Shown here: positions 12,127 through 64,000 of the stretch, in pieces
How positions within the stretch are numbered: position 1 is the stretch's first letter
Layout of the letters: every line of letters begins with the position of its first letter
From: Serratia nevei
GTDB taxonomy: Bacteria > Pseudomonadota > Gammaproteobacteria > Enterobacterales > Enterobacteriaceae
Direction of reading: 5' to 3'
Length of the DNA: 64,000 nucleotides
NCBI RefSeq assembly: GCF_037948395.1
Contig: NZ_CP149940.1
Span: 992,001 to 1,056,000, forward strand
Made by a program: the position numbers and the translations under genes
Notes under the pieces: generated by a model
Seen by the model: only the letters and a program-made list of their open reading frames with translations
Told to the model about the DNA's origin: nothing
Database searches by the model: none

Positions 12127-13323
<1,197 letters not shown>

Positions 13324-15571: not shown

Positions 15572-16540
15572 GTGGCACAGGATTATACTGTTGAGCAACT
15601 CAACTACGGCCGTAAAGTCTACGACTTTATGCGCTGGGACTACGTGGCCTTCGGCATCTCGTTGCTGCTGTTGGTCGCGTCGATCGTCACCATGTCGGTG
15701 CGCGGGTTTAACTGGGGTCTGGATTTCACCGGCGGTACGGTGATTGAAATCAACCTGGAGAAGCCGGCCAATCTCGACCTGATGCGCGATACGCTGGAGA
15801 AGGCCGGGTTCCAGGATCCGATCATCCAGAACTTCGGCAGCAGCCGCGACGTGATGGTGCGCATGCCACCGGCGACCGGCACCGCAGGCCAGGAACTGGG
15901 CAACAAGGTGATCGGCGTGATCAACGACTCGGTGGATAAAAACGCCACCGTGAAGCGCATTGAGTTCGTCGGCCCGAGCGTGGGCAGCGAGCTGGCGCAA
16001 ACCGGCGGCATGGCGCTGCTGGTGGCGTTGATCTGTATCCTGATCTACGTCGGTTTCCGCTTCGAATGGCGCCTGGCGCTGGGGGCGGTTATCGCGCTGG
16101 CGCACGACGTGATCATCACGCTGGGCGTGCTGTCGCTGTTCCACATCGAGATTGACCTGACCATCGTCGCGTCCCTGATGTCGGTTATCGGTTACTCGCT
16201 GAACGACAGCATCGTGGTTTCCGACCGTATTCGTGAGAACTTCCGCAAGATCCGCCGCGGCACGCCTTACGAAATCATGAACGTGTCGTTGACCCAGACG
16301 CTGAGCCGTACGCTGATGACTTCCGGGACCACCCTGATGGTGGTGCTGATGCTGTACATCTTCGGTGGCGCGATGCTGCAAGGCTTCTCGCTGGCGATGC
16401 TGATCGGCGTGTCGATCGGTACCGTTTCCTCCATCTACGTCGCGTCCGCGCTGGCGTTGAAGCTGGGGATGAAACGCGAACACATGCTGCAGCAAAAAGT
16501 GGAAAAAGAGGGCGCAGATCAGCCTTCGATTCTGCCTTAA
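15572..16540 (+). CDS. secF: Protein translocase subunit SecF
   Basis: SecF is the partner of SecD in the inner membrane. The product has 322 residues when started at GTG 15572, which follows GAGGAG closely and matches the family start ([13 protein letters not shown]); the longer open frame from 15446 overlaps secD and is not used. The motif [11 protein letters not shown] occurs after the first span, and [21 protein letters not shown] is the RND-type D-R signature. The gene ends the queA operon before a strong terminator. Confidence 0.97.
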
Positions 16541-24470: not shown

Positions 24471-25391
24471 TTAATTGTCGCGTTCAATAATGAAGCTGGC
24501 TAACGCTCGCAATGGCGCTGTGTTATAAGATTGCGCTGCCAAAGTGTCCAATGCAGCTAATGCTTCCTGATAGAGATCCCACGCTTTTGCTTTCGCGCTG
24601 TCAAGCCCGAGTAACGCCGGGTAGGTACTCTTTCCGTGTTGTTGGTCCGCTCCCTGGCGCTTGCCGATTTTTTCAGTCTCGCCGACAACGTCCAAAATGT
24701 CATCCTGTACCTGGAACGCCAGGCCAACCGCAGCGGCGTAACGATCCAGCTGCGGCAGCGCCGCGCGCCCGGCTTCGCCGGCGCTCAGCGCGCCCAGGCG
24801 CACCGCCGCGCGGATCAGCGCGCCGGTTTTATGGCGGTGGATCTGCTCCAGCGCCTGCAGATCAACGCGCTTGCCTTCGGCTTCCAGATCCAGCGATTGG
24901 CCGCCGCACATGCCGGCTACGCCGCTGGCGGTCGCCAGTTCAGAGACCATCGCCAGCCGATCGCGCAGGGCTACGTCAGGCATTTCGGCATCGGCCAGGA
25001 TCGAAAACGCCAGCGTTTGCAGCGCATCGCCGGCCAGTATCGCGTTGGCTTCGCCGAATTTAATGTGGCAGGTCGGCTGGCCGCGGCGCAGATCGTCGTC
25101 GTCCATCGCCGGCAGATCGTCGTGGATCAGCGAGTAGGCGTGAATACATTCCACCGCCGCCGCCGGCGCGTCCAGGTTAGCCAGCGACACGCCGAACATC
25201 TGGCCGGTGGTGTACACCAGGAATGGGCGCAGGCGCTTGCCGCCCAGTAAGGCGCCGTGACGCATCGCCGCCACCATGTTGCCGTCGTTGAACGGCAGCG
25301 GGGCGATGAAGTCCAGCAGCGCGCGATCGGCGCGCTGGCGGAAAATCTGCAGTTGATCGGCAAAAGCGGCCGATGGGGCGATCTCAGACAT
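24471..25391 (-). CDS. ispA: Farnesyl diphosphate synthase IspA
   Basis: IspA condenses isopentenyl diphosphate with dimethylallyl and geranyl diphosphates to form farnesyl diphosphate. The 306-residue protein carries both aspartate-rich motifs: LIHDDLPAMDDDDLRRG (about 83-99) and FQVQDDILDV (about 230). GGKRLRPFLVY is the substrate-binding arginine region. It lies five bases after xseB. Its product is used by CyoE, also in this window, for heme O. Confidence 0.97.
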   Translation of the reverse strand: MSEIAPSAAFADQLQIFRQRADRALLDFIAPLPFNDGNMVAAMRHGALLGGKRLRPFLVYTTGQMFGVSLANLDAPAAAVECIHAYSLIHDDLPAMDDDDLRRGQPTCHIKFGEANAILAGDALQTLAFSILADAEMPDVALRDRLAMVSELATASGVAGMCGGQSLDLEAEGKRVDLQALEQIHRHKTGALIRAAVRLGALSAGEAGRAALPQLDRYAAAVGLAFQVQDDILDVVGETEKIGKRQGADQQHGKSTYPALLGLDSAKAKAWDLYQEALAALDTLAAQSYNTAPLRALASFIIERDN

Positions 25392-43194: not shown

Positions 43195-43223
43195 TTAGCC
43201 AGTTAAACCAGAGCGTTATCAGC

Positions 43224-43255
43224 AAAATGGGGGATTTCATCCCCCATTTCTTTTT
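43224..43255 (+). terminator. Terminator of clpX
   Basis: AAATGGGGGAT and ATCCCCCATTT pair around a TT-rich centre and lead into CTTTTT. Confidence 0.88.
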
Positions 43256-43270
43256 CCTGCATTCTTGCCG

Positions 43271-43297
43271 TTGAATGTAAGAGATTCATCCCCATAT
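43271..43297 (+). promoter_or_regulatory. Sigma-32 promoter of lon
   Basis: TTGAAT (43271-43276) and CCCCATAT (43290-43297), spaced by 13 bases, match the heat-shock consensus and the E. coli lon promoter layout. Confidence 0.7.
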
Positions 43298-43388
43298 ACT
43301 CATTAACCAGATTTTATGAAACGTTAGATGCTTGCGTCTCATGAGATTCCCCCTCAACCTGGCGGAAATTAAACTAAGAGAGAGCTCT

Positions 43389-62343: not shown

Positions 62344-62457
62344 GGGGGCCCTGTTGGTTCTCCCGCAACACTAACTTGTGAACTCGGTCAGGTCCGGAAG
62401 GAAGCAGCCGCAGCAGGTGACGTGTGTGCCGGGATGTAGCTGGCAGGGCCTCCACCA
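62344..62457 (+). ncRNA. ffs: 4.5S RNA of the signal recognition particle
   Basis: 4.5S RNA binds Ffh to form the signal recognition particle that targets membrane proteins to FtsY and SecYEG. The 114 bases include the universally conserved Ffh-binding region GGTCAGGTCCGGAAGGAAGC and the opposing GTGCCGGGATGTAGC. The ends pair as a long stem (GGGGGCCCTG with CAGGGCCTCC, one G-U pair). Length equals the E. coli RNA. The 3' end from 62441 is also the outer end of a 141-bp inverted repeat, so a mobile or invertible element abuts the gene directly. Confidence 0.95.
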
Positions 62458-62468
62458 ATTTGTATCTA

Positions 62469-62497
62469 AGTACTTAATAAGTAATGATTAAAGTACT
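62469..62497. promoter_or_regulatory. Candidate tyrosine-recombinase core site in the left arm
   Basis: AGTACTTAAT (62469-62478) and ATTAAAGTACT (62487-62497) are inverted apart from one inserted base and enclose the eight-base spacer AAGTAATG. Two inverted binding arms around a 6-8 base spacer is the layout of tyrosine-recombinase crossover sites. Activity is inferred from form only. Confidence 0.45.
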
Positions 62498-62519
62498 GAA
62501 ATCCCGCCTCCATAGCCTT

Positions 62520-62547
62520 AGTGGTACAAAAACTGTGTATCACCAGT
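62520..62547. promoter_or_regulatory. Imperfect palindrome before the recombinase start
   Basis: TGGTACA and TGTGTATCACCA form an imperfect inverted repeat about a dozen bases before the recombinase ATG. It may be an operator or an additional recombinase-binding site. Confidence 0.3.
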
Positions 62548-62558
62548 AGGGCTTCACG

Positions 62559-63629
62559 ATGTCTCTTATGCTCTCCCGTCATGGGATCTGGTATTACCGT
62601 AAAGTTAACGTTTTACCCTGTGGTAAACGTCGTGAGTTTCGTCGTTCGTTAGGTACTCGTTCAAAGACTGAAGCGACAAAGCGATCTTTACGCTTTGCAG
62701 ATCGCCCTTGGCTGATTACTGAAACTGTCAGTCCTACAATCGGTATGAGCCAAACCCCTCAATCAGAATTGTCATTCCAAGAGCTAAAACTACAGGCTGT
62801 ACAGTATGTTGAGTTTAAAAGCCTTGAAGTTTGCGAGAGGGAAGTCGCTTCTATCAAACGCTGTATTGGCAAGTACTTTAACTTTACTGATCAGGTATTT
62901 AAGCGTAGTAGGGCTTCTGAATTCATTAGCGGGCTAGATGTCGCCATTCCTACGAAGAACAAATATGTTAAGAAAATCAGCGGATTTTTCCGATGGCTGA
63001 AACATCATACTGACTATGATTTCCAAAACCCTTTTGAAGGATTGCTCCAGAAGGATCGTGAGCCAGTATCCCAAAAGCGAGAGGCATATACAGATTTTCA
63101 GATTAAACATCTTGAGAATGGGAGCACTACTTTGCCTGAATGGAAGAGGTGGATTGTTTTACTTGGTCGTTTTACAGGGATGAGGGCAAACGAAATTTGC
63201 CAACTATATCATAACGATATATTCAAAAATGATGGGAGGTGGTGCATCAGGATAGATGATCGTTATGAAGGACAAGTGGTTAAAACAGAGAACAGTAAAC
63301 GTACCATACCAATTCATAAAAAATTGATAGATATTGGTTTTTTGCACTATGTACAAAAGCAAAAAGGCAGATTATTTCCCCAGCTAACTCTCTATAAGGG
63401 ATCATATAGCCACTACTTCACCCGTTGGTTTAGCGGTTATCGTAAAAGATTAGGCGTTCCTGAGTTTCATTCACTGAGACATTACGTTGCAACTAAGTTT
63501 AAAAATGCTGGTGTAGTGGAGCATTACGCTGCTGCATTCTTGGGACATGCAGATAACTCAATCACATACAGGAGATATGGCAAATCAGTGGCTGTGTCGC
63601 GATTATATGATCTATTGGAGCATATTTGA
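62559..63629 (+). CDS. Tyrosine recombinase/integrase at the ffs 3' end
   Basis: The 356-residue protein is a tyrosine recombinase. The catalytic set is complete: Arg209 (FTGMRANEI), Lys242 (VVKTENSKR), His304 and Arg307 (HSLRHYV), His330 (FLGHADNS) and nucleophile Tyr340 (YRRYGK). The N-terminal part (MLSRHGIWYYRKV, then RREFRRSLGTRSKTEA) resembles the arm-type DNA-binding domain of phage and island integrases, followed by a SAM-like core-binding domain (about 70-165). The first eight codons lie in the inverted repeat. The second ATG at 62568 is an alternative start. AT content is higher than in neighbouring genes, indicating transfer. No excisionase is next to it. It may be an integrase, an invertase for its own segment, or both. 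Confidence 0.92.
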   Translation: MSLMLSRHGIWYYRKVNVLPCGKRREFRRSLGTRSKTEATKRSLRFADRPWLITETVSPTIGMSQTPQSELSFQELKLQAVQYVEFKSLEVCEREVASIKRCIGKYFNFTDQVFKRSRASEFISGLDVAIPTKNKYVKKISGFFRWLKHHTDYDFQNPFEGLLQKDREPVSQKREAYTDFQIKHLENGSTTLPEWKRWIVLLGRFTGMRANEICQLYHNDIFKNDGRWCIRIDDRYEGQVVKTENSKRTIPIHKKLIDIGFLHYVQKQKGRLFPQLTLYKGSYSHYFTRWFSGYRKRLGVPEFHSLRHYVATKFKNAGVVEHYAAAFLGHADNSITYRRYGKSVAVSRLYDLLEHI

Positions 63630-63638
63630 TCTCGTTCT

Positions 63639-63666
63639 AAGCAGCCTCTTTACTAAGAGCCCGCTT
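63639..63666. terminator. Weak hairpin after the recombinase gene
   Basis: AAGCAGCCTCTT and AAGAGCCCGCTT pair with two mismatches around loop TACT. There is no T-run. It may end the recombinase transcript weakly. Confidence 0.3.
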
Positions 63667-63668
63667 AT

Positions 63669-63809
63669 TGACGGGAGAGCATAAGAGACATCGTGAAGCC
63701 CTACTGGTGATACACAGTTTTTGTACCACTAAGGCTATGGAGGCGGGATTTCAGTACTTTAATCATTACTTATTAAGTACTTAGATACAAATTGGTGGAG
63801 GCCCTGCCA
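63669..63809 (-). repeat. Right arm of the perfect 141-bp inverted repeat
   Basis: Exact reverse complement of 62441-62581. On the minus strand it repeats the recombinase start region, giving ATG and seven codons, then reads CAA TAA, so the peptide would be MSLMLSRQ and stop. It ends with an inverted copy of the last 17 bases of ffs. The mirrored core-like site is at 63753-63781. Confidence 0.97.
63753..63781. promoter_or_regulatory. Candidate core site in the right arm (inverted)
   Basis: Mirror image of the site at 62469-62497, including the eight-base spacer. Recombination between the two oppositely oriented copies would invert the segment between them. Confidence 0.45.
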
Positions 63810-64000
63810 TCAGCCGTTAGTACTAAATTGTGTCGGTTAATCAATTGGTTATCATGGTAGTACTACAACAGTACTGTACCACTCTCGATAGTACCGTCCA
63901 GCACAAAATCTTGCAAGTTAACGTGTTTGTATTGATTTACAGCTAATTTTTTATATTTTATAGTCCAGTATCCCATTGGATCGTACGGTTGCATGGAATT
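63810..64000. other. AT-rich tail beyond the right arm, no gene recognised
   Basis: These 191 bases run to the window end. They contain a cluster of palindromes centred on AGTACT (TTAGTACTAA at 63817-63826, GTAGTACTAC at 63857-63866, ACAGTACTGT at 63868-63877) and another TAGTAC near 63889. The same word occurs twice in each core-like site. This may be a regulatory or recombinase-binding region of a larger island; no reading frame is convincing. Confidence 0.5.

Follow-up and report, generated by a model that had tools for sequence, protein, structure and literature searches.

Islands that integrate by means of a tyrosine integrase are usually treated as single segments lying between attL and attR. 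The island described here, which occupies the 4.5S RNA gene ffs, resembles them in that its integrase adjoins attL, a short direct core stands at both ends and insertion is into the 3' end of a conserved RNA gene. Unlike them, it holds a complete second attP in inverted orientation, and its cargo, bounded by R' and R arms, is found in both orientations. The departure from known integrase islands is this combination of an inverted second attP and a two-way cargo. Among the titles and abstracts that searches of the open-access PMC literature listed, no description of this island or of an inverted internal attP in integrase islands was found.

The yeast 2-micron plasmid carries 599-bp inverted repeats with FRT sites and interconverts between two isomers via Flp, and Flp recombination in this plasmid can start double rolling-circle replication (PMC3147054). 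An excised circle of the island would similarly hold two inverted recombinase sites within identical repeats, with the recombinase gene in one half; unlike the plasmid, the island resides in the chromosome, integrated at ffs, and the likeness is drawn from its integrated sequence. The fimS switch with FimB-E (PMC7545054) and the PsrA switch of hsdS (PMC7096588) also pair a tyrosine recombinase near inverted repeats with a segment found in two orientations. The island differs from those switches in that its repeats are the att arms of the island itself, the invertible part comprises all of the cargo, and close relatives keep the same orientation; additionally, the island integrase scores 16.5 on the invertase model PRK09870, for which the cut-off is 221. 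A conserved inverted second attP splits the island into two mirror-bounded parts, with a cargo that turns over in nature and arms that evolve in concert. Since sequenced strains of Escherichia coli carry the island, the role of the second inverted att site, be it in cargo orientation, exchange or copy-number amplification, is directly approachable.

Anatomy of the island at ffs

The window is the whole stretch of DNA that was analysed, 64,000 nt corresponding to C1:992001-1056000 of a 5.46-Mb genome in two contigs. The island runs past its right edge; positions in the locus record L005, which covers the remainder, equal window positions minus 60,000. Features within the window are as follows.

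62352..62448, plus strand: ffs (4.5S RNA), the insertion target of the island (Rfam RF00169, 75.7 bits)
62442..62448, plus strand: attL core GGCAGGG, the same as the attR core at C1:1064007-1064013 and, in inverted form, as core'
62449..62581, plus strand: L arm, left copy, with the first 23 nt of int (inverted repeat; identical to L')
62559..63629, plus strand: tyrosine integrase gene int, 356 aa (open reading frame; PF00589 Phage_integrase, E 8.5e-16; phrog_1 integrase)
63639..63666, no strand: stem-loop-like inverted repeat between int and L', also present in related islands (recognised by reading the sequences, without folding)
63669..63801, minus strand: L' arm, the second, inverted copy (inverted repeat, identical to L)
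63802..63808, minus strand: core' of the internal inverted attP (core comparison)
63809..63925, minus strand: R' arm of the internal attP, an inverted copy of the island's right end (144-nt inverted repeat, 98%)
63926..64000, no strand: start of the cargo segment, which continues past the window to about C1:1063886, followed by attR

Two inverted repeats, 62441-62581 and 63669-63809, agree at 141 of 141 positions and enclose a 1,087-bp spacer, an identity beyond chance, and the 3' end of ffs together with the first 23 nt of int can be read in both. The initial annotation had correctly described these arms and their content, and had correctly regarded long inverted arms as unusual for an integrase island. 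The usual layout has a single attP, and the one here has a second, inverted attP inside. That annotation had also taken the integrase and its arms for a self-contained segment and, possibly, a compact mobile unit, and here the results diverge from it. The inverted similarity continues past 63809, and the 1.37-kb unit is the left part of an island of about 9.6 kb that has the usual short direct repeat. Besides the two arms, a DNA search of the window's own genome recovered one related stretch, C1:1063884-1064027, and no other copy of the 1.37-kb unit.

This further stretch locates the far end. Positions 63788-63931 are an inverted copy, 98% identical over 144 nt, of the island's right end at L005:11884-12027, beyond the window; in the window island, R' and R have 0 mismatches over 126 bp, core included. 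The right end contains TGGCAGGGTCCCCACCC, read as the native 3' end of ffs, and then host sequence, while the resident ffs owes its present 3' end, up to about 62457, to the island. From the attL core at 62442-62448 to the attR core at C1:1064007-1064013, 8 kb past the window edge, the island spans about 9,564 bp, with the short direct repeat GGCAGGG at both ends and the host target rebuilt at attR.

Taken as its reverse complement, 63669-63925 gives R arm, core and L arm in that order. By this reading the stretch constitutes a complete second attP, such as is expected of the circular form, placed in inverted orientation inside the island just behind int. The layout can be written ffs-core-[L-int-L']-core'-[R'-cargo-R]-core-host. 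The element is probably an integrative island of an ffs-specific tyrosine integrase, with the int segment between L arms and the cargo between R arms. The integrase frame in the window is intact and adjoins one island end. A sequence search for relatives of Int with solved structures gave none at E 0.01, and Int missed the curated cut-off for GmtY of Gamma-mobile-trio islands (18.7 versus 340 bits).

Distribution and relatives

Of 5,426 E. coli genomes searched with 62441-64000 (1,560 bp), 63 match and 50 of these hold at least 80% of the query; among the matches listed (60 of the 63), 48 continue past the right arm into R' in one orientation. All 19 of the E. coli regions examined with this int sit at ffs. 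The search of other genomes for the unit that the initial annotation had proposed found the layout with both arms at ffs, at 22 loci across five genera (the window, E. coli, Citrobacter, Raoultella and Phytobacter). An assembly error in the right arm, which that annotation had considered, is unlikely because the layout recurs, with different sequence, in these 22 loci and is found in many complete genomes, and because most of the E. coli matches hold at least 80% of the query.

Among 99 relatives, int matches at E 0.001 were present in 20 genomes; window genome aside, those above 50% identity comprised one full-length-like match (57%), one partial match (96% over 189 aa) and short fragments. 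Of the 8 loci returned by a scan of species genomes, those in Citrobacter werkmanii, Raoultella ornithinolytica and Phytobacter diazotrophicus are mirror islands, and the remaining five are partial or uncertain. With the attP as a DNA query, 394 sampled genomes of the order gave 1 match, the window's own genome. In E. coli LR-29-1, the integrase is 64-69% identical and is cut into two pieces by an IS3 element; both pairs of arms are there even though int and L' are separated by an extra gene. Among plasmid and phage records, 85 and 9, respectively, matched int, all at less than 60% identity, and in viral contigs there was no exact match to the R end and no relative of int was confirmed.

A more distant relative is found in Aeromonas caviae (a 4.9-Mb record deposited as a plasmid), where an integrase 37% identical to that of the island lies, as here, directly after ffs. 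Unlike the island, this locus shows no inverted repeat flanking int, and its attL core has no inverted copy within 25 kb. Because this one distant outgroup shows no inverted second site, the second attP looks derived. The same Aeromonas record (L070) contains repeats of about 165 bp that are 85-91% alike, at 13149-13313, 16314-16479 and 24745-24910; they follow the ffs integrase and stand between subsequent stretches, and are possible cassette boundaries.

In Limnobaculum (int 56-57% identical), no L' was found behind int and the assembly held one full L arm, with contigs ending at the L and R arms. Specifically, contigs of Limnobaculum allomyrinae (L066/L080, L032 and L067) break off after the first 38 nt of int and close to where the R arm ends; the contig ends look as if both arms were present there in two copies.

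A separate observation concerns three E. coli loci (L027, L022 and L023), the hosts of which have 7-12 differences in 12-14 kb to the left of ffs and the islands or cargos of which differ. Such different islands or cargos in nearly alike hosts point to fast replacement at ffs.

Arm identity, cargo orientation and the action of Int

The arms evolve in concert, since the L arms (133 bp, core included) have 0 mismatches within 21 of the 22 elements while the 10 distinct left-arm types differ from each other by 3-27 changes; several elements have one type in common, such that the count is of 10 arm types and not of 22 independent cases. The exception is the island of C. werkmanii (L029/L065), with 7 mismatches between its L arms, the left being identical to the L020 type and the right near the L019 type. 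The derivation of these two arms from two lineages indicates that the islands recombine with each other. Over 126 bp with the core, 11 of 21 elements have R arms without a mismatch and the rest have 1-6 mismatches; some of these mismatches fall in the outermost columns, which belong with the cargo end.

Inverted cargos were observed directly in pairs of natural islands. L058 and L021 have int and cargo in common, with the cargo in opposite orientation (7,181 bp at 99.75% identity), as do L060 and L057 (10,179 bp at 99.76%), with breakpoints in the R arms in both pairs. In L019 and L061 the cargo is likewise inverted between flanks that are nearly the same: the left 15.5 kb, including int, has 7 mismatches and 1 gap and the right 7.1 kb has 3 mismatches. 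The cargo itself has 21 mismatches in this pair, more than the flanks, so replacement of the cargo is possible there. The length of the inverting cargo segment ranges from 5.6 to 13.5 kb.

When the strand of int was compared by eye with that of the serine recombinase in 54 E. coli genomes, 38 had the two on the same strand and 16 on opposite strands. It should be noted that the 54 are those of the listed matches (60 of 63) that overlap the 55 rows with at least 80% of a second query, one non-overlapping row being left out. A tree of int segments was built from 19 rows, 13 of them different, omitting L022-L024; it calls for at least 5 changes of orientation, and orientation clusters on it no more than labels assigned at random do (mean of 5.2 after shuffling). 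Further, all six of the cargo pairs with at most 10 mismatches are in matching orientation, and opposite-orientation pairs have at least 15 mismatches in 6-10 kb. That near-identical cargos match in orientation indicates that orientation is inherited in the short term, which argues against rapid phase variation. By these comparisons, the cargo has turned over several times among natural strains, slowly and not as a fast switch.

The integrase itself behaves differently from the expectation of the initial annotation, which had proposed inversion of the 1,369-bp unit: int was reversed in 0 of 22 loci and points away from ffs in all 22. Inversion at the locus does occur, as had been suggested, but the inverting part is the neighbouring cargo and not the integrase unit. 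Similarly, of the suggestion that ongoing inversion or gene conversion underlies the arm identity, the part that holds is that the arms are kept alike by some process and are tied to inversion; fast inversion does not agree with the co-orientation of close cargo pairs. As a guess, the fixed orientation of int could reflect selection against int reading towards the essential ffs, or loss of int expression.

These observations are probably accounted for by the action of Int at more than one pair of sites. Recombination by Int of the direct attL and attR cores would excise and integrate the island, while recombination of the inverted core' with attR, or of attP with attP' in the excised circle, would turn the cargo. 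Gene conversion, or branch migration that starts from such intermediates, may then keep the arms alike. Whereas the anatomy, the presence in five genera, the L-arm identity and the natural cargo inversions with R-arm breakpoints can be read off the sequences, Int is the agent that we infer for the inversions. Its action at core' and attR seems the likeliest cause of cargo inversion, which is probably tied to excision and transfer rather than to fast switching.

Several observations weigh against this role of Int: the length of the R arms would suffice for homologous recombination, int is unflipped at 22 loci though the L arms would be equally good substrates, the closest cargo pairs never differ in orientation, the L arms of C. 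werkmanii have diverged, the R arms match fully in just 11 of 21 elements, and in L019 and L061 the cargo may have been replaced. In a serious though less likely alternative, Int is an integrase only, the mirror layout arose by one accident (e.g., tandem insertion followed by inversion), and both the turning of the cargo and the likeness of the arms are by-products of gene conversion and RecA-dependent recombination between inverted repeats. Arms of 120-140 bp of near-identical sequence, slow cargo inversion, and the better homogenisation of the nearer L pair (1.1 kb apart; 21 of 22) than of the distant R pair (11 of 21) are all consistent with that proposal. However, free recombination between L arms should flip int too, which is seen at none of the 22 loci, unless flipped forms are selected against, and the full attP' is kept in lineages whose integrases differ at about a third of residues.

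A fast phase-variation switch, in which cargo orientation would set which cargo genes are expressed, draws on the natural occurrence of both orientations and on the match of some cargo genes to candidate defence families. It is very improbable given the uniform orientation of the closest cargo pairs and the distance between opposite ones; moreover, promoter-like matches in the region number 27 versus 33.2 in shuffles, which is no excess. Least credible is the self-inverting 1.37-kb integrase cassette of the initial annotation: its arms would permit inversion, but a flipped form is absent from all the loci compared and the cassette is part of a larger island.

Cargo genes and motif content

At the host end of its cargo, the window island encodes a serine recombinase (PF00239, E 2.8e-36) and a DUF2188 protein (1.7e-25). 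The rest of the cargo includes an EAL-like protein whose matches to Pfam and to the PDE model PRK11596 both fall short of the cut-off, a protein with a weak HNH match and unknown proteins; one cargo protein, of 268 aa, matches the phage family phrog_21495 (E 2.3e-101). No replication gene was recognised among the scanned cargo proteins. The serine recombinase of one E. coli island shares 61-65% identity with its counterparts in the 15 plasmid records listed as best, which include small Klebsiella plasmids, and it may be speculated that such a plasmid-like recombinase would suit multimer resolution.

By extension of the action proposed for Int, a more tentative and improbable scheme can be drawn, of a bacterial equivalent of the 2-micron plasmid in which the circle replicates, inversion by Int in the middle of replication produces a double rolling-circle burst of copies, the serine recombinase cuts these down to monomers, and the monomers reintegrate at ffs with the cargo in either orientation. 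If true, such amplification would explain the conserved second attP, the alike arms, the slow and transfer-tied inversion, and the serine recombinase in the cargo.

In the cargos of three E. coli islands (L018, L025 and L026), 3 of 10 scanned proteins have clear or weak hits among the PADLOC models: PDC-M45A (1.5e-56), an NsnB-like ATPase (9.8e-56) and a type IV restriction HNH protein (5.3e-8).

Motif content was compared in nine islands (the window island from 62449 to L005:12005, together with L018-L020, L025, L026 and L063-L065). The hexamer AGTACT occurs 17-33 times per island in eight of them versus 1.5-3.3 expected, an enrichment of about tenfold whatever the cargo, and 22 times in the ninth. 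Host flanks are not enriched, and DNA near the related Aeromonas and Limnobaculum integrases has 0-3 occurrences per 4 kb. GCGC occurs once in the nine islands. The AGTACT enrichment suggests a factor tied to this island clade, and the rarity of GCGC suggests restriction-site avoidance. Two candidate explanations for AGTACT were set aside: SlmA-like sites, because the flanking bases do not fit the SlmA site, and a tie to the small serine recombinase, because enrichment is missing from two other islands that have a related recombinase. Elsewhere in the window, and unrelated to the island, an sraA sRNA match lies at 43216-43309 on the minus strand.
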